Source: an uncultured Hyphomicrobiales bacterium (lineage in GTDB: Bacteria; Pseudomonadota; Alphaproteobacteria; Rhizobiales; Beijerinckiaceae). Taken from it: 33,844 nucleotides of DNA. Positions 1,683-31,439 of the stretch are shown here, piece after piece. The first letter of the stretch is position 1. Every line of letters begins with the position of its first letter. The position numbers and the translations under genes are program-made. The notes below the pieces were generated by a model. It searched no databases and was not told where the DNA came from. It saw nothing but the letters and a program-made list of their open reading frames with translations. The stretch covers positions 1 through 33,844 of the forward strand of contig CAISEY010000349.1 of NCBI GenBank assembly GCA_903884435.1, given 5' to 3'.

Positions 1683-2639
1683 CTACTTCAGCGCGTCGAT
1701 CTGGACGAGGTCGGCGAGTTGCCTGTCCGTCAGCGGCTCGGCGATGAACCTGAACTGCACCGCGTCCTGCATGCTCTCGGCGATGCCCGAAACACGGTCG
1801 ATCTGGAGACTTTCCTTCGTGATGAAGTCCTTCATCATTTCGCGCACGGAGATTTCCGGCAGGCCGGAGAACTCGACGTAGCGCTTCACCGCGTCGGGCG
1901 TCTCGTACATCCAGTCCAGGGTTTCGCGATAGGCCGCCAGATACCTCCTGATCGCGTCCTTTTTCGCGGCGAGCGCGGCGGCGTTGACGATCTGCACGCG
2001 GATGGTCTGGCCGCGCACGCGCGCGATGTCGCTGCCCTTCGCGAGCAGCCTGATTTCGCCCTTGCGCAGCGGCTCGAGGTTGAACGGAGCCACGCACCAG
2101 CCAATGTCGATCTGGCCGGACATGACCTGCGTGATCGTCGCGGACACATCGCCGGAGGCGACCGCCTTCGCGTCCTTCAGGCCGTATTCGCTGATGAAGC
2201 GCAGGGCGTTGATGTGGCTCGACGACCCCGTCGTGGAATAGGAAATCGTCTTGCCGTGCGCGTCCTGCATCCGCGTCACCGGCGACGAGGATTTGTTGTA
2301 CCAGAAGACTTCCCCGGAGCCGGTCGAGCTCGCGCCGATGATCCGGATCGGCGCGCCCTTGGCGAAGGCGCCGAACGCGCCCGCCGTGCCCGCGCTGAGG
2401 CCAATGTCGACCGCGCCGGAAATCACGACCTGGAGAGTCTCGCCGCCGCCCGACGTGTAGACGATGTCGAGATCGAGCCCGTGCTTTTTGAAAATGCCCG
2501 CCTGCGTTCCAAGCTCGGGAATGGCGCCCTCCCAGCTTCCCCGCTGCGGCGAGGCGATTTTCAGGGTTTCTCCGGCGGCGGCGCCCGCGAACAGCGCCGA
2601 AGCGGCGAAAAGGACGGCGAAGACAGACCTGGGCGACAT
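1683..2639 (-). CDS. Periplasmic ABC-type substrate-binding protein, NMT1/SsuA/TauA-like
   Basis: The 318-residue product starts with a Sec signal peptide of about 22 residues ending near AAAG, followed by ETLKIA and a PAELG-like region (GAIPELGTQAGIFKKHGL). This is the usual start of NMT1/THI5-type (nitrate, sulfonate, taurine or pyrimidine) binding proteins. The GGGETLQ, SGAVDIG and VMSGQIDIGW blocks match the family. It is a clear paralogue of the protein at 20702-21649. No ABC ATPase or permease is encoded anywhere in the window. It lies upstream of thiC in the same direction, but the riboswitch separates the two. Because ThiY belongs to the same superfamily, a thiamine-precursor role is possible but unsupported. 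Its own promoter is at 2664-2692. Confidence 0.85.
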   Translation of the reverse strand: MSPRSVFAVLFAASALFAGAAAGETLKIASPQRGSWEGAIPELGTQAGIFKKHGLDLDIVYTSGGGETLQVVISGAVDIGLSAGTAGAFGAFAKGAPIRIIGASSTGSGEVFWYNKSSSPVTRMQDAHGKTISYSTTGSSSHINALRFISEYGLKDAKAVASGDVSATITQVMSGQIDIGWCVAPFNLEPLRKGEIRLLAKGSDIARVRGQTIRVQIVNAAALAAKKDAIRRYLAAYRETLDWMYETPDAVKRYVEFSGLPEISVREMMKDFITKESLQIDRVSGIAESMQDAVQFRFIAEPLTDRQLADLVQIDALK

Positions 2640-2663
2640 GTGCGTTTCCTTCCGGTTGCGCCA

Positions 2664-2692
2664 ATGCTATGCGCGTCGCGTCCCGCCCTCAA
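2664..2692 (-). promoter_or_regulatory. Predicted sigma-70 promoter of the binding protein at 1683-2639
   Basis: On the minus strand TTGAGG (2692-2687) and TAGCAT (2669-2664) are separated by exactly 17 bases. The expected transcript start lies about 18 bases ahead of the ATG at 2639. The same -10 hexamer occurs before several other genes in the window. Confidence 0.55.
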
Positions 2693-2760
2693 GACCGCGC
2701 CGGCGAAACGGACCGGCGCGCGGAAGGGCGGACGCGAAAACAATGGAGGGCGCCGGACTC

Positions 2761-3780
2761 ATGCGGTTGAAAATTTCGATGACCGGTCTCGTTCTGGCTG
2801 GCTTCTGCTGGTGCTGGCCGGCGGTCGCGGCGGACTTCTACGAGGGCAAGACGATCACGCTGGTCGTCGGCAACGACCCCGGCAGCGGCTACGATTCCTA
2901 CGCCCGCGTGCTCTCCCGCCACATGAGCCAGCACATTCCGGGAAAGCCGAACATCGTCGTGCAGAACATGCCGGGCGCCGGCAGCATCACCGCGGCGCAA
3001 TATCTCTATGTCGTGGCGCCGAAGGACGGGACCACTTTCGCCATTCTCTTCCCGGGCGCCGTCATCGAGCCGCTGACCGGCGATCCCTCGAAATACCGCT
3101 ACGATCCCGTCAGGTTCGAATATATCGGCACCGCCGACAGCGGCACGCGCCTGTGCTTCACGAGCGCCGCCTCGGGGGTGAAGACCTTCGCCGACGCGCG
3201 CGGGCGCAAGACGCTGATCGCGGCCACCGCCGCCGGCAGCTCGACCTGGGACTACGCCGCCTTCTTCAACGCGGTCGCCGGCGCGAAATTCGAGATCGTG
3301 CCCGGATACAAGGGCCCCGCAGACCTCGTCCTCGCGATGGAGCGCGGCGAGGCGGACGGCGTCTGCGCGCTCGACGTGAGCACGGTGACGACGCTGCGGC
3401 CGGACTGGCTGGGCTCGGGCAAGGCGAACTTCATCGTCCAGGCGGGGATCGAACCCAACGAGAAGCTGTTGAAGTTCGGCGTGCCCTCCATGTGGGACTT
3501 CATCTCCGGCGACAATCGCGAAGTCGCCGAACTCTTTGTCAGCCAGCAGGTGTTTGGCCGCCCCTTCCTCGCGCCGCCCGGCGTGCCCGCCGAACGCGTG
3601 AAAATCCTGCGCGACGCGTTCGACGCGACTTTCCGCGATCCGGAGGCGCTCGGGGAAGCGCGCCGCATGCAACTCGAGGTGAACCCGCGCGGCGGCGAAG
3701 CGGTCGCCGCCCTCGTGAAGAAGGTTTACGCGAGCCCGCGGACGCTGATCGACCGGATGGCGAAATCGATCAGGCCATGA
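2761..3780 (+). CDS. Tripartite tricarboxylate transporter substrate-binding protein (TctC/Bug family)
   Basis: Product of 339 residues. The start at 2761 is preferred because GGAGGG lies 10 bases before it and a signal peptide ending at AVAA follows directly. The longer upstream reading is GC-driven. After the signal come DFYEGKTITLVVG, a GSGYDSYAR block, HIPGKPN and QNMPGAGS. These are typical of a divergent Bug subfamily found five times in this window. GAKFEIVPGYKG and MERGEADG follow. Bug proteins bind carboxylates in the periplasm and deliver them to TctA/TctB membrane proteins. The nearest such permease is 25 kb away at 29376-31439. The gene diverges from the NMT1-like gene at 1683-2639, with about 120 bases between them. 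Confidence 0.88.
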   Translation: MRLKISMTGLVLAGFCWCWPAVAADFYEGKTITLVVGNDPGSGYDSYARVLSRHMSQHIPGKPNIVVQNMPGAGSITAAQYLYVVAPKDGTTFAILFPGAVIEPLTGDPSKYRYDPVRFEYIGTADSGTRLCFTSAASGVKTFADARGRKTLIAATAAGSSTWDYAAFFNAVAGAKFEIVPGYKGPADLVLAMERGEADGVCALDVSTVTTLRPDWLGSGKANFIVQAGIEPNEKLLKFGVPSMWDFISGDNREVAELFVSQQVFGRPFLAPPGVPAERVKILRDAFDATFRDPEALGEARRMQLEVNPRGGEAVAALVKKVYASPRTLIDRMAKSIRP

Positions 3781-3795: not shown

Positions 3796-4812
3796 TCAAA
3801 GCCCGAAATTGCTGGCCCAGACAGCCGCGAGCCTCGTCATGTCGCCCGCGCTGAAGGGCGGCATGTCGGCGACGCGCGCGATTTCCTCCATCTGCTCCAG
3901 CGTCGAGAACCCGCCGAGACCGACGATGACGCCGGGATGGGTGAGGATGAACCGAAATGCCGCCTGCGCCAGCGAAATTCCATTTTCGCGCGCGAGGAAG
4001 GCGACCGCCGCGGCCTGTTTGCGCAGCCGGATGGAGCTTTCGGAATTCATGTCGTAGGCCCGCGCCAGCGGATGCCGGTTATCGCCGCGCAGCGCGTCGT
4101 CAGTGAGGAATCCGCTCGCCAGCGGCGAATAAATGGCCGCGCCGCCGCCCCGCTCGCGCGCCCGATTGATCACGCCGCCGAAGTCCTTGACGCCCTTGAG
4201 GCCGGGCGCCGCGTAGCCCGCCGTCGGATTGAACAACGTGAACGGCGTGTTGACGAGATGAAACAACCCGCTGTCCAGCAACTCGCGCGTCTCCACGCCA
4301 TCGCCGCCGCGGCAGATGAAACCCGCGTGACGGATTTTTCCATCGTGCAGGAGGCGCCGCACGCCCTCCATCGCGCCGCCTGGTCCGGTGAACTGTTCGA
4401 GGGGGAGCTGCGCGTAATACTTGCCTTCCATCGCCAGCGGCTTCGAGGTCGGGCCATTGTGAATTTGCATCACGTCGAGACGCTCGACGCCAAGACGCTT
4501 CAGGCTCGCCTCGGTCGAGGCCACCACGTGACCGGCGATGTCGCCAAGGTTTTCCGCGCGAATCTCGACCTTGGAATTCAACAGCGGGCGCGCGCCAAGT
4601 TCCTTCAGCGCGCGTCCCAGGTTGCTCTCGGCGACGCAATTTCCGTAGTCCGGCGAATTGTCGAAATAATTGATCCCGAGTTCGAGCGCGCGCGCCACGA
4701 CGCGCGTTTGTTCCCGCGCGTCGCCGCGAATCATCAAACCGGCGTTGCCGCCGCAGCCAAAGCCGATGACGGAAAGCTCGAGACCGGTTTCGCCAATTCG
4801 CCGGTATTGCAC
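3796..4812 (-). CDS. Aldo/keto reductase
   Basis: Product of 338 residues from a GTG at 4812 (MQYRRIGETGLELSVIGFG), the normal AKR N-terminus. An in-frame extension upstream overlaps the next gene and is rejected. The catalytic tetrad is visible: Asp51 and Tyr56 in DNSPDYGN, Lys81 in NSKVEI and His118 in IHNG. Family members are NAD(P)H-dependent cytosolic oxidoreductases acting on aldehydes, ketones or sugars; some act in sugar or sulfur-compound catabolism. The stop lies 15 bases from the convergent Bug gene. It lies 17 bases downstream of the VOC gene and is probably co-transcribed with it. Substrate unknown. Confidence 0.88.
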   Translation of the reverse strand: MQYRRIGETGLELSVIGFGCGGNAGLMIRGDAREQTRVVARALELGINYFDNSPDYGNCVAESNLGRALKELGARPLLNSKVEIRAENLGDIAGHVVASTEASLKRLGVERLDVMQIHNGPTSKPLAMEGKYYAQLPLEQFTGPGGAMEGVRRLLHDGKIRHAGFICRGGDGVETRELLDSGLFHLVNTPFTLFNPTAGYAAPGLKGVKDFGGVINRARERGGGAAIYSPLASGFLTDDALRGDNRHPLARAYDMNSESSIRLRKQAAAVAFLARENGISLAQAAFRFILTHPGVIVGLGGFSTLEQMEEIARVADMPPFSAGDMTRLAAVWASNFGL

Positions 4813-4829
4813 GCGGCCTCTCCCTCGCC

Positions 4830-5231
4830 CTATTCCGCCGGAACCTTCGTCTTCTTCGCCTCCCGCTCCGGCGGATATTCCACCTGGTCGTAGCCATGCA
4901 CGGAAATGTCGAAGAGATTGCCGTCCGGGTCCATGCCGCGCTGTTCGGCGAAGGGCGTCTTCGAAGGGCGCTGCGTCGGCTTCGGCAAGCCGTGCGCGAC
5001 GATCTTCTCGCCGACCTCGTCGGCGTCGTCGACCGTGATGCCAAAGTGGTTGTAGCCGGGCGGCGCTTCCTCGGGCCGCGACTGCAGCAACGCGATGGTG
5101 AGATAACCATCGGTGACGTAATAGCCCGTGCCCTGCTGGTGAATGACCTTGAGGCCAAGGGCCTCCTGATAGAATTTCGCGAGCCGCGCCGGGTTGTGGG
5201 ACTTGAACGCGAGGTGACGGATTTTCACCAT
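4830..5231 (-). CDS. VOC family protein (glyoxalase/dioxygenase fold)
   Basis: Product of 133 residues starting MVKIRHLAFKSHNP at 5231, directly after AGGAGGA. A 10-residue upstream extension is therefore not used. It is a single vicinal-oxygen-chelate domain. Likely metal ligands are His6, His62 (GYNHFGITVDD) and Asp108 in GNLFDIS, where family members usually carry Glu. The sequence DPDGNLFDI is typical of lactoylglutathione-lyase-like or dioxygenase-like members. It is probably expressed with the aldo/keto reductase downstream. Reaction not assignable. Confidence 0.85.
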   Translation of the reverse strand: MVKIRHLAFKSHNPARLAKFYQEALGLKVIHQQGTGYYVTDGYLTIALLQSRPEEAPPGYNHFGITVDDADEVGEKIVAHGLPKPTQRPSKTPFAEQRGMDPDGNLFDISVHGYDQVEYPPEREAKKTKVPAE

Positions 5232-5273
5232 GGGCTTCCTCCTGATCGTGGCCGACGCCATGTTCGATGCCTG

Positions 5274-5302
5274 ATGCTAACACGCGAAAATCCGGCTGGC
5301 GA
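5274..5302 (-). promoter_or_regulatory. Predicted promoter of the VOC/aldo-keto reductase unit
   Basis: On the minus strand TCGCCA (5302-5297), a 17-base spacer and TAGCAT (5279-5274) precede the VOC start by about 40 bases. The -35 box is weak (4 of 6). The -10 box is the one recurring in the window. Confidence 0.4.
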
Positions 5303-5311
5303 GGCGGGGGT

Positions 5312-5340
5312 TTGACGCGCGAACCATGATCGCCGACGAT
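5312..5340 (+). promoter_or_regulatory. Predicted promoter of the flavoprotein/Bug unit
   Basis: TTGACG (5312-5317), a 17-base spacer and GACGAT (5335-5340) would start a transcript about 26 bases before the GTG at 5373. The -35 box is good and the -10 box weak. Confidence 0.35.
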
Positions 5341-5372
5341 GCGGGCAAGGTGAAAATTCCCGGAGGAAAGAC

Positions 5373-6854
5373 GTGACGGACCGGCAAACCTGCGACGTGA
5401 TCGTGATTGGCGCGGGCAGCGCGGCCTTCGAGGCTGCGGTCGCCGCGCGGCGGGCGGGCGCCGAACGCGTCGTCATGCTGGAAAAGGCGCCGGAGGCGGA
5501 AGCCGGCGGCAACGCGCGCTATTCGGGGACCGGCTTTCGCTTCGTCCATGGCGGTGCCGCCGAGATCCGCGAGTTTCTTCCCGACATGCCGCGAGCCCTG
5601 TTCGACACGATGCAAATCAATCCCTACACGGCCGCCGACTATCACGCCGATCTCGAGCGCATGACACAGGGCCGCATCGACAGGGCGCTCGCCGAAGTCC
5701 TCGTCTCGCAATCCAACGCCGCCGTGCGCTGGATGGCCGCCGCTGGCGTCAAATGGGAGCCGGTGACGGAACACGCGCTCGTCGACGGCAAGCGCTATTT
5801 CGAGCGCGGCGTCGTCCTTCATGTCGCCGGCGGCGGCCCCGGCCAGCTCGCGCAATGGCGCGAAATCGCGACGGGGCTGGGGATCGAAATCCGCTTCGAC
5901 TCGCCGGTGTGCGGCATCATCGGCGACATGCGCGCCGTCGAGGGCGTGCGCGTCGCGGGGCGCGATGGCAGCTACGAACTGCGCGCCCGCGCGGTCATCG
6001 CCTGCAGCGGCGGCTTCCAGGCCAATCGCGAGATGCGCGCGCGCTATCTGCCGGGAGCGACCGATTTCATGAAGGTGCGCGGCACGCGACACGATACAGG
6101 CGAGGTCACGCGCTTTCTTCTCGATCTCGGCGCCCGTCCGGCGGGCCAGTGGCAGTCGGGGCACATGTCGCCCATCGACGCCAGCGCGCCGGACTTCGAA
6201 ACGCCGCAAAACGCGGACGGACTCGGCAACACGCAAAGCCGCTACGACTATCCGCAGGGAATCAGCGTCAACGCGCTCGGCCTGCGTTTTTTCGACGAGG
6301 GCGAGGCGCAACATTCCTACACCTACGCGAAGACCGGCCGCGCCGTGCTGGCCCAGCCGGGCGCCGTGGCGTTCCAGATTTACGACGCGAAGGGCGTGAA
6401 ACTGTTTCGCTACCCCAAACACGCCGCGACCTTCGAGGAAGCGGACACGATCGCCGACCTCGCGCGGAAAATCGGCGTCGAGCCGCGCGTGCTCGTGGAC
6501 ACCGTCGAAAAATTCAACGCGGCCTGTCCGGCCGAACCTCCCTTCGATCCGCGCAGGCCGGACGGACGCAAGACCGTCGGCCTCGACATTCCCAAGTCGA
6601 ACTGGGCCCGGCCGCTCGACACACCGCCCTTCCGCGCCCTGCCCGTCACCGGCGGCATCACTTTCACCTTCGGCGGCGTCGAGGTGAACGGCGCCGCGCA
6701 GGTGATGAACGTCGCCGACCAGCCCGTCCGCGGCCTCTACGCCTCCGGCGACATCCTCGGCCTCTTCTTCCACAATTACCCGTCCTTCACGGGCCAGACG
6801 CGCAACGCCGTGTTCAGCAAGCTCGCCGGCGAACACGCCGTGCGCGCGAACTGA
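5373..6854 (+). CDS. FAD-dependent dehydrogenase, TcuA/fumarate-reductase flavoprotein type
   Basis: Product of 493 residues from a GTG at 5373 after a GGAGGA ribosome-binding site. The N-terminus carries the FAD-binding Rossmann motif GAGSAA (13-18). GGNARYSGTGFRFVHGG follows, the hallmark region of tricarballylate dehydrogenase TcuA and related succinate-dehydrogenase/fumarate-reductase flavoproteins. The C-terminus has YASGDILG followed by a NAVFSKLAGE stretch. TcuA oxidises tricarballylate to cis-aconitate and passes electrons to TcuB. No TcuB (Fe-S/haem) or TcuC gene is next to it. Instead a Bug binding protein follows 20 bases downstream, suggesting that a carboxylate is imported and then oxidised. 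The family is clear but the substrate is inference. Confidence 0.85.
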   Translation: MTDRQTCDVIVIGAGSAAFEAAVAARRAGAERVVMLEKAPEAEAGGNARYSGTGFRFVHGGAAEIREFLPDMPRALFDTMQINPYTAADYHADLERMTQGRIDRALAEVLVSQSNAAVRWMAAAGVKWEPVTEHALVDGKRYFERGVVLHVAGGGPGQLAQWREIATGLGIEIRFDSPVCGIIGDMRAVEGVRVAGRDGSYELRARAVIACSGGFQANREMRARYLPGATDFMKVRGTRHDTGEVTRFLLDLGARPAGQWQSGHMSPIDASAPDFETPQNADGLGNTQSRYDYPQGISVNALGLRFFDEGEAQHSYTYAKTGRAVLAQPGAVAFQIYDAKGVKLFRYPKHAATFEEADTIADLARKIGVEPRVLVDTVEKFNAACPAEPPFDPRRPDGRKTVGLDIPKSNWARPLDTPPFRALPVTGGITFTFGGVEVNGAAQVMNVADQPVRGLYASGDILGLFFHNYPSFTGQTRNAVFSKLAGEHAVRAN

Positions 6855-6874: not shown

Positions 6875-7876
6875 ATGCGTCTCGTGAAACTGTTCGCGCT
6901 CGCCCTCGCGGCTCTGGCTCTCGCGGCGCCGGCGCGCGCGCAGGATTACTTCAGGGGGCGAACCATCACGCTCTACGCCGGCTTCACGCCGGGCGGCGGC
7001 GTCGACGCGGAAATGCGTCTCATCGCGCAATTCCTCGGTCGCCACATCCCGGGAAATCCCAATGTTCAGGCGATGAACATGCCGGGCGCCGGCGGCATCC
7101 TTCTCGGCAATTATCTTTATTCCATCGCGAAGCCGGACGGACTCACCATCGGAATGCCCGGGCGTTCCGGATTCTTTCTCGCCGCCGCGGTCGGCGACGC
7201 GAGCGCGCGTTACGACATCGGCAAGTTCACCTGGATCGGCGCCGCCGGCGCCAACAATCTCATGCTCTGGCTGCGCAAGGGTCTTGGCGTGCGCACCTAC
7301 GCCGAACTGAAGCAGTCGAAAACGCCGGTTGTCATCGGCGGCCTCGCGACCTCCTCGTCCAGCGTCGTCGTGCCCATGGTGCTGGCGAAATACGACGGCG
7401 CGCCGCTGAAGATCATCTCCGGCTACACGGGGCTCGCCGAGGCGAGTCTCGCCATGGAGCGCGGCGAAATCGACGGGATTTACACGCACGCGGGCACGTT
7501 CCGCCCGGACCGGATCGCCTCCGGCGACATCGTGCCCGTCTTGCAGACGTTCCCGGTCGAGCCGGGAATGCCAAGTCTCGACGACGTGAAATCGCCGCGC
7601 GCGCGGGCGCTCGACAATCTGCTCACCGCGCCAAGCCGCCTCGGCGCGCCCGTGATCGCGCCGCCCGGCGTGCCGGGGGAGATCGCGACGATCCTGCGCG
7701 ACGCCTACGTCGCCACGGGATCGAGCAGGGACTATGTCGACGAGGCGGCGAGACGCGGCATAGACATCGGCAAGCCCGCCCGTGGCGAGGACCTGCAATC
7801 CTTCGTCGCCAGCAGCCTCGGCCACATACCCGGAGACATCGTCGAGGAATACAGGGGGTACGTCGGGATGAAGTGA
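6875..7876 (+). CDS. TctC/Bug family substrate-binding protein
   Basis: Product of 333 residues with a signal peptide ending ARAQ (about residue 23), then DYFRGRTITLYAG. It carries GGGVDAEMR, HIPGNPN and MNMPGAGG, the subfamily signature shared with the proteins at 2761, 9722, 18649 and 28246. A MERGEIDG block follows in the second lobe. The start is 20 bases after the flavoprotein stop and the pair is probably one operon. Its ligand is probably the flavoprotein's substrate or a related carboxylate (inference). It ends 7 bases from the convergent gene at 7884. Confidence 0.88.
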   Translation: MRLVKLFALALAALALAAPARAQDYFRGRTITLYAGFTPGGGVDAEMRLIAQFLGRHIPGNPNVQAMNMPGAGGILLGNYLYSIAKPDGLTIGMPGRSGFFLAAAVGDASARYDIGKFTWIGAAGANNLMLWLRKGLGVRTYAELKQSKTPVVIGGLATSSSSVVVPMVLAKYDGAPLKIISGYTGLAEASLAMERGEIDGIYTHAGTFRPDRIASGDIVPVLQTFPVEPGMPSLDDVKSPRARALDNLLTAPSRLGAPVIAPPGVPGEIATILRDAYVATGSSRDYVDEAARRGIDIGKPARGEDLQSFVASSLGHIPGDIVEEYRGYVGMK

Positions 7877-12390: not shown

Positions 12391-12922
12391 ATCCATTCTG
12401 CTGAAGATGGCGCTGATCTTCGCGACGACGGCGCTCGTCTCCGTCGGCGGCATCGCCACGATGATCCCGGAAATCCACCGTCAGGCCGTCGATCTCAACG
12501 GCTGGATGACCAACGACGTCTTTGTCTCGACCTTCGCCATCTCGCAGATCGCGCCCGGACCGAACATTCTGCTGATGAGCCTCGTCGGCTGGCGCGTCGC
12601 GGGCGCCGGCGGCCTGATCGTGGCGACGCTCGCGACGGTGGTTCCGACGTCGCTGGTCGCGCTGGCGGCCAGCCGCGCGGAAAACCGGCTGGCGAACGCC
12701 CGCTGGTACGCGACCCTGCGCAAGGCCGCGCCGCCCGTCGTCGTGGGGCTCATCATCGCCAGCGGCTTCGTCACGGCCCGCGTCGCGATCCGCGATCTCG
12801 CCGGGATCGCCATCGCTCTCGGCGTAGCGGTTTCGATCAACGTCGCGAAAATCAATCCGTTGATTCCGCTGGCCGTCGCCGTCGCGGCGGGCGTGCTCGC
12901 GGGACGGCTTGGCTATATGTAA
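12383..12922 (+). CDS. Chromate transporter, C-terminal-type half (short-chain ChrA)
   Basis: Product of 179 residues with about five to six hydrophobic segments. The CHR signature is present as SVGGIATMIPEIHRQAV and FAISQIAPGPNILLMSLVGWR. It overlaps the first half by 8 bases and is expected to form a heterodimeric carrier with it. Its 3' end overlaps the convergent MarR gene by 10 bases (12913-12922). Confidence 0.88.
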   Translation: MSESILLKMALIFATTALVSVGGIATMIPEIHRQAVDLNGWMTNDVFVSTFAISQIAPGPNILLMSLVGWRVAGAGGLIVATLATVVPTSLVALAASRAENRLANARWYATLRKAAPPVVVGLIIASGFVTARVAIRDLAGIAIALGVAVSINVAKINPLIPLAVAVAAGVLAGRLGYM

Positions 12923-23037: not shown

Positions 23038-24114
23038 TCACCTGAACAGGTCGCTCCAGATTTTCTCGCTGCTTTCGGAATATTTCGAAACGACCTCGGG
23101 CGTCAGGAAGTTCTCGGAATAGCCGGCGCGCGCGGGCACGACGGAATCAAGCTCCGGCAAGGCGGCGACGCCCGGCAAGGCCGGATAATACTCGGCTTTC
23201 GCCAGCGTCTCCTGCCCCTCTTTCGACAGAATGAAATCCGCCAGCAGCAGGCTCGCGTGCGGATGACGCACGCCCTTCGGGATCAGCAAGGTCGAATTCG
23301 TCACTGTCACGGGATCGAGCAATTGCGAGGCGACGGGCGCGCCCTTGCCGGCGCTGATCAGCGGATGATGCGCGAAGATTTGCAACGCGACGGGATATTC
23401 GCCGGCCATCACACGATCGACGAGCGTGCGCGCGCTGCCCGCGCCGAAATTGACGATTCCCTGCTCGCGCAACGCGCGGAAATAGGCCATCGCGCGCTCC
23501 TCGCCCCAGGCGACGCGCAGCGAGGTGATGAACAGCGGAGCGCCGCCGGACGTGCCGATGCGCCAGGCCAGCTTGCCCTTCCACTTCGGGTCGAGCAGGT
23601 CTTGATAGGACTTCGGCTGCGCGCCCGGCGGCACGAGCTTCGTGTTGTAGGCAAGGCCAAAGTAGCTGAGCCGCGACGCCGTCCACATATGGCGCGGATC
23701 GCGCAAGGCTTCCGGATAATTCAGGACGGACGGCGTCGTGTAGGGCGTGACGAGATCCGCCTCGATGGCGGCCTCGCCGACGCCTGGCCCCTCCAGCAAA
23801 TCGGCGACGGGCCGTCCGCCGCGCGTCTCCGCCGAGACCTTCGTGACGATGTCGCCGGGATCGCCGCGCCAGAAACTCATTTTCACGAATGGATATTTTT
23901 TCATGAAGGCGTCGGCGAGCGGACGCATCGCCTGGTTGACGATGATGGTCGCGTAAAGCACGACCTCCTTCTCGGCGCGCGCGCCCTCGATCAGCCGCGC
24001 CTCGCGGTCGGCGCCCGCGTGGGTCAGAATGTCCGGGGCCTGCGCGCGAACTTGCGATGACGCCGCGAGAAGCGCCGCGACGAGCGCGAGGCCCGGAACC
24101 CGAAAGCCGCCCAT
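23038..24114 (-). CDS. FbpA-like extracellular solute-binding protein
   Basis: Product of 358 residues with a signal peptide ending SSQVRAQA. The core has KEVVLYATIIVNQAMRPLADAF, YNTKLVPP, LDPKWKGKLAW and a WGEERAMAYF block. This is the layout of ABC binding proteins of the iron/thiamine/putrescine cluster. It is a paralogue of the protein at 27223-28239 (shared LDPKWKGK, WGEER, ALQI and KGAPV). Binding residues for iron (paired tyrosines) are not obvious, so an organic ligand is more likely. It is the third gene of the minus-strand unit with class II aldolase and amidohydrolase; no ABC permease or ATPase is nearby. Confidence 0.85.
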   Translation of the reverse strand: MGGFRVPGLALVAALLAASSQVRAQAPDILTHAGADREARLIEGARAEKEVVLYATIIVNQAMRPLADAFMKKYPFVKMSFWRGDPGDIVTKVSAETRGGRPVADLLEGPGVGEAAIEADLVTPYTTPSVLNYPEALRDPRHMWTASRLSYFGLAYNTKLVPPGAQPKSYQDLLDPKWKGKLAWRIGTSGGAPLFITSLRVAWGEERAMAYFRALREQGIVNFGAGSARTLVDRVMAGEYPVALQIFAHHPLISAGKGAPVASQLLDPVTVTNSTLLIPKGVRHPHASLLLADFILSKEGQETLAKAEYYPALPGVAALPELDSVVPARAGYSENFLTPEVVSKYSESSEKIWSDLFR

Positions 24115-24138: not shown

Positions 24139-24993
24139 CTAAAAACCGAACAACCGCGCGGGATTGTCGACGAAGACCTTTTTCGCCGCCGCCTCGTCCG
24201 GCATGTAGCGCAGTCCGAGATCGACCTTGCCCTTAAAGCCCGTCGGATGCAGCACGTAGGGCTTCGGCCGCGGATTGATCCAGCGCGCCACGTGCGGCCA
24301 GTCGCTGCCCCAGACGCAACGGTCGGGCGCGGCCTCGTAAAACGCGCGCCCGAAGGGAACGGCGTCGTCCCAGGGGTATTCGTGCGCGAGATGATCTCCG
24401 TTCGACAGCATGATCCAGAAGCGTTCGTCCTTCAGGAACTCCAGCAGGCGCGTCATGCCCGGCTGGCCGACGCCCTGCTCGAAAGGCAGTTGCCCCATGT
24501 GATCGAACAGGATTTTGATCTTCGTCTTGCGCAATTCGTCCGCCACGTCGGCGAGTTCGTCCGGCCCGCAAAACACTTTCGCGAACCATCCCATCTCCGA
24601 AATGCGCGCGATCTGCCGGTGGAAATCGGCGAAGTCCGGCACGAGGCCGAAGCGCGTCTGGAAATTGAACCGCGCGCCGCGCACGCCCGCGTCGTGCATG
24701 TCGGCGAGTTGCTTGTCGGAGACGCTGGAATCGACGATGGCGACGCCGCGCGCCTTGCCCTTCGGCAACGCCCGCAGCGTGTCGCAGAGGATCGAGGCGT
24801 CGGTCGCGTAGATCGTCGCGTTGACGATGACGAAATGCTCGAAGCCGAGTTCGTCGTAGATCGCCAGCGCCTTTTCGATCGTCCCCTCCCCGGGCGGGGG
24901 AACGTAGAGCGGCTTCGGATGCCGCGGAGGATATTTCGCGGGATCGGCGAAAATGTGAATCTGGCCGTCGCAGGCTCCCTTGGGAAGTTTCAT
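24139..24993 (-). CDS. Amidohydrolase family 2 protein, LigI-like (2-pyrone-4,6-dicarboxylate hydrolase type)
   Basis: Product of 284 residues, the size of LigI. It aligns with LigI in order: CDGQIHIFADPAKYP near the N-terminus, RGARFNFQTRFG, KILFDHMGQLPFEQG and WGSDWPH near the C-terminus. In the first motif the initial His of the usual H-x-H is Gln. Since LigI itself is described as metal-independent, this need not abolish activity, and the Asp of WGSDWPH is kept. LigI hydrolyses a lactone dicarboxylate in lignin-derived aromatic breakdown; here a lactone or cyclic-ester hydrolase role is likely. It starts 6 bases after the aldolase stop. Confidence 0.83.
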   Translation of the reverse strand: MKLPKGACDGQIHIFADPAKYPPRHPKPLYVPPPGEGTIEKALAIYDELGFEHFVIVNATIYATDASILCDTLRALPKGKARGVAIVDSSVSDKQLADMHDAGVRGARFNFQTRFGLVPDFADFHRQIARISEMGWFAKVFCGPDELADVADELRKTKIKILFDHMGQLPFEQGVGQPGMTRLLEFLKDERFWIMLSNGDHLAHEYPWDDAVPFGRAFYEAAPDRCVWGSDWPHVARWINPRPKPYVLHPTGFKGKVDLGLRYMPDEAAAKKVFVDNPARLFGF

Positions 24994-24999: not shown

Positions 25000-25782
25000 T
25001 CAGTCCCTGTAGCCGGGGTCGATCTTGTCGAGCATCGTCAGCAGCGCCGGCCAGGCGTCCGGCCTGCCGTTGCCCGGCACGTCGTCGCGCTCGTGCTGGC
25101 GCGCCGCGTGTTCCTGCACCGTCGGCGAAAGCTTGATCAGCGTGCCGCCGCTCTGCATCGCGGCGAGCTGAACCTTGCAGCTCTTCTCGAGGTTCAGCAT
25201 CGAATGGTAGGCGCGGCCAATGCTCGCGCCGCAGACCAGCAATCCGTGATTGCGAAGGATCAGCGCGTTCCTGTCGCCGATGTCGCGCACGAGGCGCGCG
25301 CGTTCGTCGAGATCGTCGGACTTTCCCTCGTAGTCGTGACAGGCGATGCGATTGTAGAAGCGAAGCGACTTCTGCGACAGCGGCAGCAAGCCTTCCTCCA
25401 GGCAGGCGATCGCCATGCCCGCGACCGTGTGCGTGTGAATGATGCAAACCACGTCCGGCCGCGCGCCATGGATCGCCGAATGAATGACAAATCCCGCGGG
25501 ATTGATCGGCCAGGGCGAGTCGGACACGATGTTGCCGGCGAGATCGACCTTGACGAGATTCGACGCCGTCACCTGCGAAAACAGCAGCCCGTAGGGGTTG
25601 ATGAGGAAATGCTCTTCCTTGCCTGGCACGCGCGCGGAAATATGCGTGGCGAGCAGGTCGTCCATGCCGTTGAGCGCGATGAGCCGGTAACAGGCCGCGA
25701 GATCGACGCGCATTTTGCGCTCGGCCTCGCTGACCGGCGCGGCCTCGTGTTTGCGGGAAATGGCGACGGGCGCGACGGCCAT
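25000..25782 (-). CDS. Class II aldolase/adducin family protein
   Basis: Product of 260 residues starting MAVAPVAISRKHEA at 25782, directly after CAGGAGGA; a 36-residue upstream extension is rejected. Zinc-site features are present: LLATHISARVPG, His pair in IIHTHTVAGMA, and RNHGLLVCG with the third His. These metal-dependent enzymes cleave or decarboxylate 2-hydroxy- or 2-keto-acid and sugar-phosphate substrates. In catabolic islands they often act on aromatic ring-derived acids. It is the first gene of a unit with LigI-like amidohydrolase and FbpA-like binding protein, which fits a path from a cyclic lactone to central metabolites (inference). Confidence 0.88.
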   Translation of the reverse strand: MAVAPVAISRKHEAAPVSEAERKMRVDLAACYRLIALNGMDDLLATHISARVPGKEEHFLINPYGLLFSQVTASNLVKVDLAGNIVSDSPWPINPAGFVIHSAIHGARPDVVCIIHTHTVAGMAIACLEEGLLPLSQKSLRFYNRIACHDYEGKSDDLDERARLVRDIGDRNALILRNHGLLVCGASIGRAYHSMLNLEKSCKVQLAAMQSGGTLIKLSPTVQEHAARQHERDDVPGNGRPDAWPALLTMLDKIDPGYRD

Positions 25783-25802
25783 TCGGGTTCCTCCTGATGT
25801 TG

Positions 25803-26089
25803 TGACGCTGGCGCAATCTAGGGCCGGCGCGCGGCTTTCGCCAGAAGATTGTGCGCGCGCCGCGACTCTGTTCGGCGCGTGGGAAGGCAACTGGCTCGCC
25901 CTGAACTTCGGTCACGACGTCGCGCTGCCCGGCGCGAAACAAGGTCCGGCGGATTTTTTGATGTATCCGCGAGGCGAGGTCGGCGCGGAACAGCTCGACA
26001 GCCTGGATCCCGACAATTTCAGGTACGAGATCACCGCGCGCGAACTCGACGCGATCCAGCCGGCGGCGGCGCGCGGCGACGTCCGCGCG
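25803..26089 (+). pseudogene. Possible 3' coding remnant in an intergenic region
   Basis: Between the aldolase start and the stop of the Bug gene at 26090 lies 307 bases with no intact gene. One plus-strand frame reads a protein-like string (FGAWEGNWLALNFGHDV, then MYPRGEVGAEQLDSLD and DNFRYEITARELDAI) with high third-position G+C. It has no start with a ribosome-binding site and no stop before running antisense into the Bug gene. The rest of a gene could have been lost on either side. I do not recognise the family. It may instead be chance in a GC-rich sequence. Confidence 0.3.
25815..25843 (-). promoter_or_regulatory. Predicted promoter of the aldolase/amidohydrolase/binding-protein unit
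   Basis: On the minus strand TGGCGA (25843-25838), a 17-base spacer and TAGATT (25820-25815) precede the ATG at 25782 by 32 bases. The -35 box is weak. Confidence 0.4.
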
Positions 26090-27061
26090 TCATTCCACCT
26101 TGATGCCGGCCTGGCGCACGCCGAGCTGGAACTCCGCGAATTGCTTGTGAAGAAACGCCGTGTAGTCCGCGCCGCAAAGGCCCTTGGGCATGACGCCAAG
26201 GGCGGCGAGCTTCGGCTGGATGGCGGGCGCCTTCAGCGCCGCGGAAAACCACCCTTGCAGCTGCGCCATCGCCGCCGGCGGCGTTTTCGCGGGCGCGACG
26301 ACGCCAAGCGTTCCCACCCAGTCGAGATCGGGGAATCCGATGTCGCCCAGAGTCGGAACATCCGGCAATTCGGCCAGCCGCTTGCCCGTGCCAACCACGA
26401 GCGGACGCAGCTTGCCGTCGGCGATTTGCCCGGCCCCCGTCGAATAATCGAACAGCGCCGCCGTGACCTGCTCGCCGAGCACCGCGGTCAGCGTCGGCGC
26501 GTCGCCGGGATAGGGCACGAAGGTCATGTCGACGCCCGCCGCGTGGCGGAACAATTCGAATTCGATGTGTTGCGCCGTCGCCGGCCCGCTGGCGGCGAGC
26601 GTCAACGCGCCGGGCCTGGCGCGCGCGGCCTTCAGCAGATCGTCGATCGTGCGATACGGCGAGGACGCCGGCACGACCATCAATTGCGGGGTTTCCACGA
26701 GGTAGCAGACGTGTTCGAAACTCGTGAAGGGATCATAGTTCAGCTTCTTCACGGTGGAGTTCACCATGAAGGAGCCCGCCGCCTGGAGGATCGTGTTGCC
26801 GTCCGGCGTCGCGCGCGCGACCATGTCGGTTCCAATGATCGTGCCGGCGCCCGCCCGGTTTTCAACGACGATCGTCACGCCCTGCGCGCGGCTGATTTCG
26901 TCCGCCATCAGGCGCGCGATCGTGTCGTTGGGACCGCCCGGCGCGAGCGGCACGATGTATCTGATCGTGCGCGACTGGGCGAAAGCCCCGCCGGCGCCCG
27001 AAAGTCCCAGCGCCAGAGCCGCGACAGCGAAGGAAGCTCCAAGAGCCCTGAACATCTTCAT
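26090..27061 (-). CDS. TctC/Bug family substrate-binding protein, classical subfamily
   Basis: Product of 323 residues from the ATG at 27061 (MKMFRALG), with a signal peptide ending GAFAQ. The mature part begins RTIRYIVPLAPGGPNDTIARLMAD, then ENRAGAGTIIGTDMVARATPDG. This is the standard Bug signature (PGGxxD, ENRxGAG), unlike the NMPGA form of the other five Bug proteins here. The C-terminus has GVVAPAKTPPAAMAQL. It diverges from the FbpA-like gene at 27223. It likely binds a small carboxylate and may feed the TctA-TctB permease at 29376. Confidence 0.9.
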   Translation of the reverse strand: MKMFRALGASFAVAALALGLSGAGGAFAQSRTIRYIVPLAPGGPNDTIARLMADEISRAQGVTIVVENRAGAGTIIGTDMVARATPDGNTILQAAGSFMVNSTVKKLNYDPFTSFEHVCYLVETPQLMVVPASSPYRTIDDLLKAARARPGALTLAASGPATAQHIEFELFRHAAGVDMTFVPYPGDAPTLTAVLGEQVTAALFDYSTGAGQIADGKLRPLVVGTGKRLAELPDVPTLGDIGFPDLDWVGTLGVVAPAKTPPAAMAQLQGWFSAALKAPAIQPKLAALGVMPKGLCGADYTAFLHKQFAEFQLGVRQAGIKVE

Positions 27062-27144
27062 GCGTTTCCCCGCGGTCCGGACCGGACTTCCGGACATTCG
27101 GCGTCCATGGCGCCGACGCCCGGAAACCCGGTCGGCCCGGCGGC

Positions 27145-27176: not shown

Positions 27177-27222
27177 GCGACGCGCCATGTTCCGTCGCGC
27201 TACCGGGCGCCTGGAGGACTCC

Positions 27223-28239
27223 ATGAACCGCGCCATGTTCGCAGCCCTCGCCCTTCTCGCCGCCACGCCCGCGCGCGCCGCGGACCAGGCGCTCGTCGAC
27301 GCCGCGAAAAAGGAAGGCCAGGTCGTCTGGTACACGACGCTGATCCTCCAGCAACTCGGCACGCCCATCGCCGAAGCCTTCGAGAAAAAATACGGGATCA
27401 AGGTCGAGGCGACCCGCAACGATCCCGGCGAAACCGCGCTGCGCCTGCTCAACGAGCACCGCGCCGGGAACATGCAGGCGGACGTGTTCGACGGCTCCTT
27501 CGCTCCCACGACGCTGATCCGCGAAGGCGTCCTGGCGAAATTCCAGCCGGATTTCGTCGCCGGCTGGCCCGCCGAACTGAAGGACGCCGGCGGCTACTGG
27601 ACCGCGCACCGCCTCACCGTCATCACGCCGGGCTACAACACGTCTCTCGTCAGGCCAGCCGACGCGCCAAAAACCTGGAATGATTTTCTCGATCCGAAAT
27701 GGAAGGGAAAAATGGCCTGGGGCATCAATCCCGGCATCACCGCCGCGACCGGATTCGCCGGCCTCGTGCTGCGCGAATGGGGCGAGGAAAGAGGCATGGC
27801 CTATCTGCGCCAACTCGCGAAACAGGACATCACCGGGCTGAAGGTATCGGCCCGCGCCGTGCTCGACCAGGTCATCGCCGGCGAGTTTCCGATGGCCCTG
27901 CAAATCCTCAACGACAACGCCGTCATCAGCCGCAACAAGGGGGCGCCGGTGGCGTGGATTCCCATGAACCCCGCCTTCGCCTCGGTGTCGATCATCTCGG
28001 TGACGGCGAAGGCGCGGCATCCGAACGCCGCGCGCCTCCTCGCCGAGTTCGTTGTTTCGGAAGAGGGACAAACCATCGCGAAGCAACACGACTACATTCC
28101 CGTCCACCCCGCCGTGTCGGCGCCGGAGGCCGACATGAAGCCGGATGGCGTCAAGTTCCGCGCCATCACCTTCTCGCCCGAGGAGGTCGACCAGTCCATG
28201 CCCCGCTGGAAACAGGTTTACGACGACTTGTTCCGCTGA
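27223..28239 (+). CDS. FbpA-like extracellular solute-binding protein (paralogue of 23038-24114)
   Basis: Product of 338 residues from the ATG at 27223, right after TGGAGGA and with a signal peptide ending ARAA; an upstream ATG at 27187 is less likely. The core has GQVVWYTTLILQQLGTP, YNTSLVRP, LDPKWKGKMAWG and a WGEERGMAYL block, typical of ABC binding proteins of the iron/thiamine/spermidine type. No partner ATPase or permease is present. It ends 6 bases from the convergent Bug gene at 28246. Confidence 0.86.
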   Translation: MNRAMFAALALLAATPARAADQALVDAAKKEGQVVWYTTLILQQLGTPIAEAFEKKYGIKVEATRNDPGETALRLLNEHRAGNMQADVFDGSFAPTTLIREGVLAKFQPDFVAGWPAELKDAGGYWTAHRLTVITPGYNTSLVRPADAPKTWNDFLDPKWKGKMAWGINPGITAATGFAGLVLREWGEERGMAYLRQLAKQDITGLKVSARAVLDQVIAGEFPMALQILNDNAVISRNKGAPVAWIPMNPAFASVSIISVTAKARHPNAARLLAEFVVSEEGQTIAKQHDYIPVHPAVSAPEADMKPDGVKFRAITFSPEEVDQSMPRWKQVYDDLFR

Positions 28240-28245: not shown

Positions 28246-29271
28246 TCACGGACCCAGCGTCGCCGCCCGGAAACGCGCGGCGAAGTCCGGCGACGGCGAA
28301 AAATTCGCCGTGACGAAAGCCGCGAGATCCTCGCCGGTCATCGGATCGACACCGAACCCCGGCTTTCCGATGTCCTCGACGAAGGCCGCGTCCGCCATCA
28401 TCGCGTCGAAGGCGCGCCGCAGCGTCGCCACGCGCTCCGGGGGAACGCCAGGCGGCGCCATCAGGTTGAGACCGAGTTCGGAGATCGCCACCATCAGGCG
28501 CATCACCGCCTTGCCCTCCTCGCCGTTGGCGAGTTCGACGACGGTGGGCACGTCGGGAAGACGGGGAAGACGCTTCAGTCCCGCCGCGTAAAGCGGCCGC
28601 GCGAGGCCGCGGGTGATCCAGCCGCCCGGCGTCAGCAGCGAATCCGACATGACATTGCCGATCCCGTCGATCTCCCCCCGTTCCATCGCGAGAAGGGCGC
28701 GATGTTCGGATTCGTAGCCCGTGACGACGCGGAATTTCGCGCCCGCGAAGCCGTTGAGCGCCGTCGGCAGCATTGCTTGCGGACCAGTCGGGGAATTCGC
28801 GCCGAAAACAACGTCCCGCCGTCTCGCGTCGTCGAAGTCGCGCGCCGGCGAATCGCGCCAGACGACGCCGAGCCCGATCGTCGGTTGCACGCGGCCGATC
28901 CAGGTGAACTCGCGCGGCTCGTAGCGCGCGGCCGGATTGAGGACCTTGTTGAGCACCACGGACGGCTGGGCGATCAGCAGCGCCGTCCCGTCGCGAGGAG
29001 CGAGATTGAACGCGTACTCCGTGGCGCGGATCTGGGAAGCGCCCGGCATGTTCCGCGGCACGATGGCCGGGGCTCCCGGCAAATGGTCGCGCAGGCGCCG
29101 CGCGATGACCCGGGCCGCGAGATCGTAGGCCGCCCCTTCCCCCGCCCCGACGATCAGCGTGATGGGCTTGCCCGCGTTGAAATCCGCCGCCGGTTGCGCG
29201 GAGGCCGCGGTCGCCGTCGCCAGCGCGGCCAGCGCGCCGGCGACGCGGACGGACTTCGAGAACCGGGACAA
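28246..29271 (-). CDS. TctC/Bug family substrate-binding protein downstream of TctA-TctB
   Basis: Product of 341 residues if started at the TTG at 29271, which lies 7 bases after GGAGGA and gives LSRFSKSVRVAGALAALATATAASAQ as signal peptide. An ATG at 29286 would place that same ribosome-binding site inside the coding region, so TTG is preferred. The mature part has DFNAGKPITLIVG, GAAYDLAAR, HLPGAPA and RNMPGASQ. It closely resembles the Bug protein at 18649. It follows the TctA-TctB fusion by about 105 bases and is the natural cognate receptor of that permease, with a hairpin between the two genes. Confidence 0.87.
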   Translation of the reverse strand: MSRFSKSVRVAGALAALATATAASAQPAADFNAGKPITLIVGAGEGAAYDLAARVIARRLRDHLPGAPAIVPRNMPGASQIRATEYAFNLAPRDGTALLIAQPSVVLNKVLNPAARYEPREFTWIGRVQPTIGLGVVWRDSPARDFDDARRRDVVFGANSPTGPQAMLPTALNGFAGAKFRVVTGYESEHRALLAMERGEIDGIGNVMSDSLLTPGGWITRGLARPLYAAGLKRLPRLPDVPTVVELANGEEGKAVMRLMVAISELGLNLMAPPGVPPERVATLRRAFDAMMADAAFVEDIGKPGFGVDPMTGEDLAAFVTANFSPSPDFAARFRAATLGP

Positions 29272-29327
29272 ATTATGTTCCTCCATGTCCGGGCGGACTT
29301 CTCCGGCCCGCCCCCCGAATTGAAGAA

Positions 29328-29351
29328 GGCCGCCGTGTTTCCACGGCGGCC
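29328..29351 (-). terminator. Strong hairpin between tctA-tctB and its Bug gene (terminator or attenuator)
   Basis: A perfect 10-bp stem (GGCCGCCGTG with CACGGCGGCC) and a 4-base loop starts about 24 bases after the permease stop. On the minus strand TTCTTCAATT follows, which is only moderately T-rich. Partial termination would lower Bug expression relative to the permease, or the hairpin could protect the upstream mRNA end. Confidence 0.6.
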
Positions 29352-29375
29352 CTGTTTTCCAAACACCGGCGAACG

Positions 29376-31439
29376 CTAGCCGCTCGGAATGTTGTCCTTC
29401 CACCACGGCAGGAAGTCGCCAAGAACCGTGCCCGGCCACGGGATCGACAACAGCCAGTCGAACAGGAAGTAGATGAAGATGGTCATGAACACGGCCATCG
29501 GGATGACGATCTTCCAGGGCTCGCGCGCCTCGACGCGCATGAAGGCGATGATGAAGATCGGCACGGTCGGAATAAGCCCGATCAGCGCCATCGAAGCCAG
29601 GAACAGCAGCATCCAGCCGAAGAAGATGCAGCCGCGCAGGAAGATCGTGAGCGGCGGCAGATGGGTCACGTTCGACCCGATGTCCATGTGGATCTTTTCT
29701 TCCACCTCGCCCTTGGCCGCGGCCGCGAGCGACTTCGCCTTGTGCGTTTCGCTCTTGCAGAGGTCGTCGAGCAGGGACAGCGAGCAGAACAGCACGGCGC
29801 CGACGCCGACGATCATCGGAATGATCTTGGCGTAGAAGTTCCACGTCACCGCCTCGCGCAGCATCACCGCGAAGATGCAGAGCATGAACACGGGGAAGGC
29901 GTTCTGCCACGTCGGCTTCGGCGCGTGCAGATCGGACAGCATCCCCCTGAAGCCGCCATGCGACTTCACGTCCTTGAGGAACGGTCCCAGCAGCGAGGCG
30001 AAGGAGAGCGCGAACATCACGAGCACCAGCGGCCGGTACATCCACTGGATGCCGTAACGCTGGATCGAGATGAACATGTAGCGTTCCAGCACGGCGCCGA
30101 GAATGAAGCCCAGCACCAGCGGCGGACGCGGCCATTTGAAGTGCTTCATGCCCCAGGCGAAGACGCCGAAGAACAGCAGGGAGTAAAGGTCGCCCCACTG
30201 GCGCTTGCCCTCGAACCCGCCGATATAGACCATGCAGAGCACGACCGGCAGGATCAGCGAATAGCGCAGGCTCGCGAGTTTCGCGAACTGGCTGGAGAAG
30301 ATGTAGCACAGGCCGGAGCCAAGAATATTGGCGATGGCGATCGACCAGACCATCGAATAGGTGATGGACAGGTTCTTCGTGAGCATGTCGGGTCCTGGAA
30401 CCAGACCGTGCATCAGGAAGGCGCCGAGCAGAATCGCCATGCCGGCGCTGCCCGGAACGCCGAACACGATGGTCGGCACGAGCGCGCCGCCCTCGCGCGA
30501 ACAGGTCGCGCTTTCCGCCGCGATCACGCCGCGCACGTCGCCGCGCCCGAACGTTTGCTGGGCGTTCTTCTCCGTCTTCAGGGCGTGACCGTAGGAAATC
30601 CAGTCGATGACCGCGGCGCTGATGCCGGGAATGGCGCCGATCACGGAGCCGATCCACGCGCAACGGATGTTCAGCCACCAGTGGGTGAAGCAATCGACGC
30701 TGCCCTGGTAGAGGCCCTTCCAGTTATTGTCCATCTTCTCGGAGCTCGTCACCGAGGTGCGCGCCACGAGCAGGTCGCAAAGTTCCGGCAAGGCGAAAAC
30801 GCCGAGCGTCAGCGGAACCAGCGGCAGGCCTTCCCAGAGATAGAGCGAATCCATCGTCCAGCGCAGCGTGCCTGTCTGCGGATCCGAACCGATCATCGCC
30901 AGCATCATGCCGAAACACGCGCCGGTGAGGCCGCGCAGCGGCGTGCTGCCCGACAGGACCGACACCATCGAGATGCCGAACACCGCGAGCGCCAGCAATT
31001 CCGGCGAACCGATGAAAAGAATGAGCGGACGAACGATGGGCAAGGCCACGGCCATGAGCACCGCGCCGAACAGTCCGCCCATGAGCGCGGACATGTAGGC
31101 CGCGCCCAGGGCGCGGGCCCCCTCGCCGCGCTTCGTCATTGGATACCCGTCGAGAGCGGTCGCGGCGGAGGCCGCGTGGCCGGGCGCGCCAAGCACGATC
31201 GCGGAAATCGGATCGCCATGGGTTGTCGTCGCCGCGAGGCCGAGCAGCAGGGCCATCGCCGCCGCCGCGTCCATGCTGTAGGTGAACGGCAGCAAAAGCG
31301 CCGTTCCGGCGACGCCGCCAATTCCAGGCAAAATTCCCAGAGCCAGTCCGCAAAGCACGCCGCCCCAGAGCAGCGCCATGCGGTGCGGCTGCATGATTAT
31401 CCAGAAACCGTCGTTGAGTGCACCAAGCCAGTCGCCCAT
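29376..31439 (-). CDS. Fused TctA-TctB tripartite tricarboxylate transporter permease
   Basis: Product of 687 residues from the ATG at 31439 after GGTGGGGA. Residues 1 to about 500 are TctA, the large permease: GILPGIGG at 35-42, HGDPISAIVLGAPG at 74-87, then LDGYPMTKRGEGARALG and GAIPGISAAVIDW. TctA is normally about 500 residues. Here a further part, about 511-687, has four hydrophobic stretches with a charged linker of about 40 residues in the middle, and ends IYFLFDWLLSIPWPG. That resembles TctB, the small four-span subunit. No separate tctB gene exists in the window, which supports a fusion. It imports carboxylates by proton or sodium symport with a periplasmic Bug protein. It is the only permease for the six Bug proteins in this window. 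Confidence 0.92.
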   Translation of the reverse strand: MGDWLGALNDGFWIIMQPHRMALLWGGVLCGLALGILPGIGGVAGTALLLPFTYSMDAAAAMALLLGLAATTTHGDPISAIVLGAPGHAASAATALDGYPMTKRGEGARALGAAYMSALMGGLFGAVLMAVALPIVRPLILFIGSPELLALAVFGISMVSVLSGSTPLRGLTGACFGMMLAMIGSDPQTGTLRWTMDSLYLWEGLPLVPLTLGVFALPELCDLLVARTSVTSSEKMDNNWKGLYQGSVDCFTHWWLNIRCAWIGSVIGAIPGISAAVIDWISYGHALKTEKNAQQTFGRGDVRGVIAAESATCSREGGALVPTIVFGVPGSAGMAILLGAFLMHGLVPGPDMLTKNLSITYSMVWSIAIANILGSGLCYIFSSQFAKLASLRYSLILPVVLCMVYIGGFEGKRQWGDLYSLLFFGVFAWGMKHFKWPRPPLVLGFILGAVLERYMFISIQRYGIQWMYRPLVLVMFALSFASLLGPFLKDVKSHGGFRGMLSDLHAPKPTWQNAFPVFMLCIFAVMLREAVTWNFYAKIIPMIVGVGAVLFCSLSLLDDLCKSETHKAKSLAAAAKGEVEEKIHMDIGSNVTHLPPLTIFLRGCIFFGWMLLFLASMALIGLIPTVPIFIIAFMRVEAREPWKIVIPMAVFMTIFIYFLFDWLLSIPWPGTVLGDFLPWWKDNIPSG

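Follow-up and report, generated by a model that had tools for sequence, protein, structure and literature searches.

Divergent Bug-family receptors and a conserved fused TctAB permease that they may share in a genus of uncultured Hyphomicrobiales

The window analysed here is the whole of contig CAISEY010000349.1 (C349; 33.8 kb) from an uncultured Hyphomicrobiales bacterium, represented by a metagenome-assembled genome (MAG) of 5.32 Mb in 461 contigs that is 93.5% complete and 6.9% contaminated. Five of its eleven solute-binding protein (SBP) genes belong to a divergent group of the TctC/Bug receptors of tripartite tricarboxylate transporters (TTT), labelled here the BugD clade, with the window members BugD1-BugD5. 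The clade is found in all 51 genomes of the genus that were searched, in most of them with tens of copies or more. It is a lineage-specific expansion, giving weak or scattered matches elsewhere in the order. The window also encodes a fusion of TctA and TctB (TctAB). Many BugD-clade receptors, linked to neighbouring enzymes, probably share this one fused permease.

Receptor genes of the window

The window contains 32 genes as defined by a codon-usage caller. Pfam and profile searches sort the eleven SBPs into two NMT1, two FbpA-like, one TAXI-like, one classical Bug and five divergent Bug proteins. Their sole partner permease in the window is the TctA-TctB fusion; a chromate-transporter (CHR) pair is encoded besides. 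The genes are as follows.

1683..2639, minus strand: NMT1a, NMT1/SsuA-like SBP (PF09084, E 7e-23), with a signal-peptide-like N-terminus
2761..3780, plus strand: BugD1, BugD-clade SBP (PF03401, 25.5 bits, under the cut-off of 27; placed in the clade by the tree)
6875..7876, plus strand: BugD2, BugD-clade SBP, a long frame without a Pfam match at E 0.01 (placed by profile and tree)
9722..10753, minus strand: BugD3, BugD-clade SBP (PF03401, 17.9 bits; structure model available)
18649..19677, plus strand: BugD4, BugD-clade SBP (PF03401, 33.9 bits)
19709..20683, plus strand: TAXI/NMT1_3-like protein (PF16868, E 7e-10; TIGR02122, 41 bits, below its cut-off)
20702..21649, minus strand: NMT1b, NMT1/SsuA-like SBP (PF09084, E 7e-23)
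23038..24114, minus strand: Fbp1, FbpA-like SBP (PF13343, E 1e-18)
26090..27097, minus strand: BugC, classical Bug/TctC SBP (PF03401, E 2e-60)
27187..28239, plus strand: Fbp2, FbpA-like SBP (PF13416, E 1e-18; start uncertain, taken from the codon-usage caller)
28246..29286, minus strand: BugD5, BugD-clade SBP (PF03401, 35.2 bits)
29376..31439, minus strand: TctAB, TctA-TctB fusion permease (PF01970, E 5e-116, and PF07331, E 1e-6, in one frame)

This inventory agrees with a preliminary description made from the letters alone, which had listed eleven SBPs and one TctA-TctB fusion between 1683 and 31439 and no ATP-binding cassette (ABC) permease. The ABC permease domain BPD_transp_1 has no match on the contig. 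ABC_tran is absent from the window frames given to Pfam, PF00005 not having been searched genome-wide, and no permease of the tripartite ATP-independent periplasmic (TRAP) type occurs in the frames scanned. The six Bug/TctC proteins of that description are all present; however, five of them are divergent, the Pfam TctC model being weak or silent on them. At E 0.001, no NCBIfam model matches BugD1-5, BugC or TctAB. The nearest relative of BugC in the PDB is a terephthalate-binding protein (E 2.5e-47). Within the window, pairs of BugD proteins are 32-44% identical and are therefore old rather than fresh duplicates. Identity values computed across unlike families reflect free end gaps and were left aside.

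A rough home-made signal check predicts export for ten of the eleven SBPs, including all six Bugs. In the same check the TAXI-like protein has a hydrophobic stretch but no cleavage-site pattern behind it. Since its hydrophobicity (1.82) differs little from the lowest value among the other ten (1.89), the call depends on the position of the stretch and on the site. The protein is probably cytoplasmic, as judged from these features. Its earlier assignment stands as far as the PF16868 match goes, but no signal peptide was seen and the TIGR02122 score is too low; in these respects it differs from a TAXI SBP of a TRAP system, which is exported and accompanied by a DctQM permease. The structure model of this protein has a predicted local distance difference test score (pLDDT) of 38, too low to use. 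A cytoplasmic protein having an SBP fold, as this gene implies, would be unusual.

Sequence, fold and distribution of the BugD clade

When used as single queries, BugD1 to BugD5 match PDB sequences with best E values of 7.5e-8, 5.5e-4, 1.4e-7, 1.6e-5 and 2.7e-3, respectively. A profile of 14 BugD-clade sequences (A2) matches 11 PDB chains, all of them TTT SBPs, with E values from 7e-17 to 4e-8, and PF03401 at E 0.01 is matched by 16 of 21 members. The structure model of BugD3 (pLDDT 91.8) has 17 TTT SBPs as its best PDB folds, with E values of 1.4e-15 to 1.9e-10, the next fold following at 2.6e-7; TphC, Bug27, AdpC and MatC are among them. BugD3 is thus modelled with the type II SBP fold of the Bug family. 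Some plasmid-borne members of the clade are already annotated as TTT substrate-binding proteins.

In the phylogenetic tree, the BugD clade and the classical Bugs are separated by a split with 100/100 support. Operon-borne members are interleaved, and many inner forks are poorly supported, 18 of 58 being open. The BugD clade shares a motif resembling GY...LAxxRGE, carried by all five window members (with one L to V replacement), which is not found in the 14 classical Bugs aligned; these mostly have PY at that position, followed by R-G or similar.

The BugD5 query matches each of the 51 genus genomes at least 11 times. Candidates for the clade number 28-420 per genome, and all those scored match the profile except in G010, where 13 of 28 do. 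Across the order the profile matches 172 of 249 genomes, the window's own included, mostly weakly; besides the window's genome, eight of these have a match below 1e-80. Ten listed genomes from other genera of the same family have 0-4 matches each (eight candidates scored per genome), the best at E 5.8e-10.

The fused permease and its pairing with the BugD clade

The nearest protein relatives of the window TctAB come from MAGs of uncultured Rhizobiales, Hyphomicrobiales and Beijerinckiaceae, with isolate names typical of lake and pond surveys, and a near-full fusion is matched in 27 of 33 related contig loci. A tblastn search of plasmids with this protein gave 790 records at E 1e-20; the list covered 60 of these, and the first 29 were tabulated. 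Each of the first 17 records (41-50% identity) has a BugD-clade gene at a distance of 197-5,349 bases; they come from Paracoccus, Pacificitalea, Burkholderia, Paraburkholderia, Neorhizobium, Caballeronia and Sinorhizobium. Conversely, a listed TctAB match is present in 20 of the 24 plasmid records that hold a BugD-clade gene at E 1e-20. The other four comprise two records from Pseudarthrobacter and two that, when fetched, proved to contain TctA and TctB. A TTT permease is present in all 12 of the BugD-clade loci fetched, fused in eight and split in four.

The permease tree (midpoint root, long branches flagged) places the window TctAB in a group of 26 rows, supported at 100/100, together with permeases adjacent to BugD genes. 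The other two TctA proteins of the genome fall outside this group. Four lower-ranked fused-TctAB operons have SBPs that belong to the BugD clade but stand on a long branch. Thus the suggestion in the preliminary description that orphan receptors share a few transporters gains support, as divergent Bugs adjoin the same type of fused TctAB in other bacteria.

Numbers of receptors and permeases in the genome

The genome has at least 151 matches to PF03401 (TctC; 150 of 346 candidates scored). The BugD-clade profile built from the five divergent Bugs matches all 150 candidates scored (427 candidates in all), with no E value above 3.6e-90. Combined, the two lists give at least 269 places, or at least 51 per Mb. 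NMT1 is a second very large SBP family, with at least 131 matches (150 of 161 candidates scored), and SBP_bac_6 has 68, of which 66 are above the cut-off. All listed SBP places, these two families included, amount to at least 466, roughly a tenth of the genes if the total is guessed at about 5,000. A genome-wide permease count, proposed earlier as a check, yields three TctA genes and 85 ABC permease domains (BPD_transp_1) against these hundreds of SBPs.

The number of Bugs was estimated from 40 randomly drawn stretches (459 kb), in which 43 Bugs were found, 35 of them in the combined list. Capture-recapture gives a total of about 330 (294-404). Direct extrapolation of the density, giving about 498, was set aside because density varies with contig size (39 per Mb in contigs under 20 kb, 129 per Mb in 20 kb stretches).

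SBP genes make up 11 of the 32 window genes, as against 61 of 394 in the 40 stretches. This share is reached by 13% of 52 overlapping 16-gene runs in the sampled stretches. Two contigs of the same genome are denser (C69, 10 of 18 genes; C36, 9 of 20). The window is therefore rich in SBPs yet unexceptional in its genome, and the idea of a special chance cluster was rejected. The mixing of binding-protein families, previously regarded as a striking trait of this island, is likewise found genome-wide.

Relatives of the same genus

At the DNA level the fused TctAB is matched in all 22 genus relatives searched, in some of them partially at contig ends or in pieces. It is 91% identical in G011, where several receptor genes are missing with their neighbours present in order: BugD5, BugD4 (with one cupin copy), BugC and Fbp1, and also the gene at 7884-8864. 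The BugD4 spot in G011 is empty between the cupin and TAXI genes, and BugD5 is absent between Fbp2 and TctAB in both G011 and G009. Among the matches listed for the 51 genus genomes, BugD5 has no homologue above 50% identity. The Fbp1 place in G011 is a 503-base stretch with a small frame seen by eye, and G011 carries one non-SBP gene, Vgb-like by eye, that the window lacks.

Four of the six genes cleanly absent at collinear G011 spots encode SBPs, compared with five of the 23 shared genes (p 0.056). The NMT1a/BugD1 position offers no clean comparison because ThiC is inverted there relative to the aldo/keto reductase gene; when this pair is added, six of eight absent genes are SBP genes (p 0.012). 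A 71% homologue of BugD1 is found on another G011 contig. These numbers are suggestive only of the SBP genes being the variable layer between relatives.

The synteny comparison bears out the window order in blocks, since the order recurs in G011 and G009. An assembly artefact, raised earlier as a possible source of the gene order, is rejected for the blocks covered.

The genome G018 (96% complete) has one TctA match, which we take to be its intact fused TctAB, the latter reading through in one frame. All 35 of its BugD-clade candidates scored, out of 62, match the profile.

Relation to known systems

Expanded Bug families, which the preliminary description had noted as known in Bordetella, have been published for Bordetella and Rhodoplanes, so the over-representation of TTT SBPs as such is already known. 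In Rhodoplanes there are 434 TTT SBP genes, 53 per Mb, mostly orphan, with few full TTT operons (PMC5994714). The two cases are alike in having hundreds of orphan TTT SBPs, scattered singly and in short arrays. However, Rhodoplanes is another genus, and here a large share of the receptors falls in a divergent clade and the NMT1 and SBP_bac_6 families are large too. Five of the six queries of the Rhodoplanes study were compared, as the PDB chains of BugD, BugE, Bug27, TphC and AdpC. These queries would probably miss the BugD clade, because the best E values of the window members are 7.5e-8 to 2.7e-3 as against 1e-15 (database sizes differ). Surveys of TTT receptors that rely on classical queries thus seem to underestimate a large group.

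The Bugs of Bordetella likewise comprise orphan receptors and few tctAB sets; they are classical and beta-proteobacterial, unlike the divergent clade of the window (PMC5812351). In Comamonas, the TphC receptor gene lies beside catabolic enzymes and its permease genes tpiBA lie elsewhere, as here, but that system has one receptor, separate tpiB and tpiA, and a known ligand, terephthalate (PMC8556258). The fused TctAB was described as rare, in Paraburkholderia caribensis (PMC5812351), whereas in the present genus it is matched in every relative searched; the fusion of P. caribensis MBA4 falls in the same tree group as the window TctAB. In Variovorax, thermal shift assays were made on eight TctC proteins, one of which proved necessary for growth on its ligand (PMC8102459). 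River water, too, has been reported to contain tctC variants in high numbers (PMC7597016).

The divergent clade, its partner fused TctAB and the contrast of a fixed permease with changing receptors apparently are new, none of them having been found in the limited literature searched. Whether orphan TTT receptors share permeases is a question raised with the Bordetella genomes (PMC5812351). The present genus is a clear case for it, as it combines a receptor clade having an identifiable partner permease with a genome, G018, that has a single TctA match.

Proposed sharing of the permease and alternative explanations

The shared use of TctAB builds on the observed gene content, predicted export, fold of one member, genome numbers, neighbourhood pairing and retention of the permease; the ligand class, the docking of many receptors, uptake and the use of the product by neighbouring enzymes are deduced. 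TTT receptors, mostly of the BugD clade, would be scattered singly or in short arrays beside catabolic enzyme genes. They would be exported to the periplasm, where each would bind a solute that is probably carboxylate-like. The BugD-clade receptors would then dock on one conserved fused TctAB and deliver to it, and the enzyme encoded next to each receptor might use the imported product. For the NMT1 and FbpA-like receptors, the partners would be ABC permeases encoded elsewhere. This scheme follows the TphC precedent and the idea of sharing put forward for Bordetella and Rhodoplanes. In a bolder version, which is possible though rather doubtful, the single fused TctAB would be the obligate hub of the genus. 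Well over 100 BugD receptors, differing in specificity, would dock via a shared surface bearing the GY...LAxxRGE motif, and diet would shift by gain or loss of single receptor genes next to enzyme genes with the permease remaining fixed.

Several observations weigh against sharing. Binding, docking and transport are read from genes, and the MAG is contaminated (6.9%) and in 461 pieces. Among the plasmid records, the twelve following the first 17 include nine without a BugD match at E 1e-20 and three with one; the 17 themselves are not independent, seven being from Sinorhizobium and four from Paraburkholderia. On contig C134 a non-fused TctA is the immediate neighbour of a BugD-clade gene, a classical Bug lying to the other side, and the pairing of BugD with TctAB is therefore not exclusive. 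The number of TctA genes per genus relative ranges from 1 to 11. The near-complete G022 has two fused TctAB copies and, in 16 stretches (320 kb), ten Bugs, a lower density of 31 per Mb. Finally, nine of the 150 listed BugD-clade genes have an ABC permease no more than 4 kb away.

These last genes touch on the possibility that the receptors use other types of permease encoded elsewhere, ABC or TRAP, with TctAB serving few of them. The 85 ABC permease domains of the genome would be available for this, and 31 of 131 NMT1 genes and 18 of 66 FbpA-like genes have one within 4 kb, the majority being apart. In Rhodoplanes, 41 TTT SBPs are linked to ABC and eight to TRAP genes (Rosa et al., PMC5994714). 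However, apart from the nine BugD-clade genes, a mere seven of the 150 listed TctC genes have an ABC permease within 4 kb (TRAP was not searched), and in other bacteria the pairing of the BugD clade is with TctAB. This explanation is unlikely.

A role of the receptors as sensors, which the preliminary description had also offered, is still less probable. A sensory role has been published for certain TTT SBPs, and in Rhodoplanes TTT SBP genes lie near 14 of 22 histidine kinase genes (PMC5994714). Histidine kinase and response regulator genes also flank three of the four lower-ranked fused-TctAB operons. Against this, Pfam finds no kinase, chemoreceptor or two-component gene in the window, so that the adjacency typical of BctDE-like sensing is not seen; the sole regulator noticed there was judged MarR-like by eye. 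In the genome sample, 65 genes neighbouring SBPs include no histidine kinase or response regulator among the 25 families listed (54 further families occur), whereas 65 control genes away from SBPs have Response_reg and PAS twice each among 25 families listed. The control set contains one unlabelled NMT1_2 protein, the SBP labels of the sample being slightly incomplete.

That the receptors are drifting by-products of frequent duplication and movement, with little function, would accord with their variation between relatives at single positions but is very improbable, since all but one of the 150 listed BugD-clade genes are free of internal stops and the signal peptides and motif are kept.

Enzymes and other genes of the window

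The other features of the window are the following, assigned by Pfam.

3796..6854: aldo/keto reductase (minus strand) and FAD_binding_2 flavoprotein (plus strand)
11830..12922, plus strand: CHR pair
16285..18586, plus strand: SnoaL-like protein and three cupins
21816..22997, plus strand: CoA-transferase family III, CaiB-like (PF02515, E 1e-111)
24139..24993, minus strand: amidohydrolase (Amidohydro_2)
25000..25890, minus strand: class II aldolase
32041..33621, minus strand: EutA-like ATPase (PF06277, E 2e-101)

Some plasmid BugD/TctAB loci share enzyme families with the window (several records are unannotated). These are the amidohydrolase, found in Pacificitalea and Paraburkholderia, the class II aldolase, in Pacificitalea and Arthrobacter, and EutA. 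The CHR pair also occurs in a BugD/TctAB locus of Phyllobacterium. Haem-oxygenase-like and PanE-like proteins are further enzymes of the window.

Of 33 related loci, 14 combine TctAB with the EutA-like gene; many of the rest are incomplete. In two loci (L021 and L032), EutA-like ATPases lie beside cupins and TctAB or an ABC transporter, and no EutBC was found among the ten proteins scanned. The EutA-like ATPases may not be related to ethanolamine.

The first cupin (16925-17539) has no Pfam match and is named from its 32-37% identity to the other two. These (17552-18067 and 18071-18586, plus strand) are adjacent and 93% identical, a recent tandem duplication; G011 has one copy there. The gene at 7884-8864 (minus strand) encodes a 326-residue protein without a Pfam match, and the flanking alignments in G011 are 14 bases apart at this place.

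ThiC is encoded at the left edge of the window. A thiamine pyrophosphate riboswitch (1512-1608, minus strand; RF00059, 64 bits) lies between thiC and NMT1a, and thiC is therefore probably under its own control.

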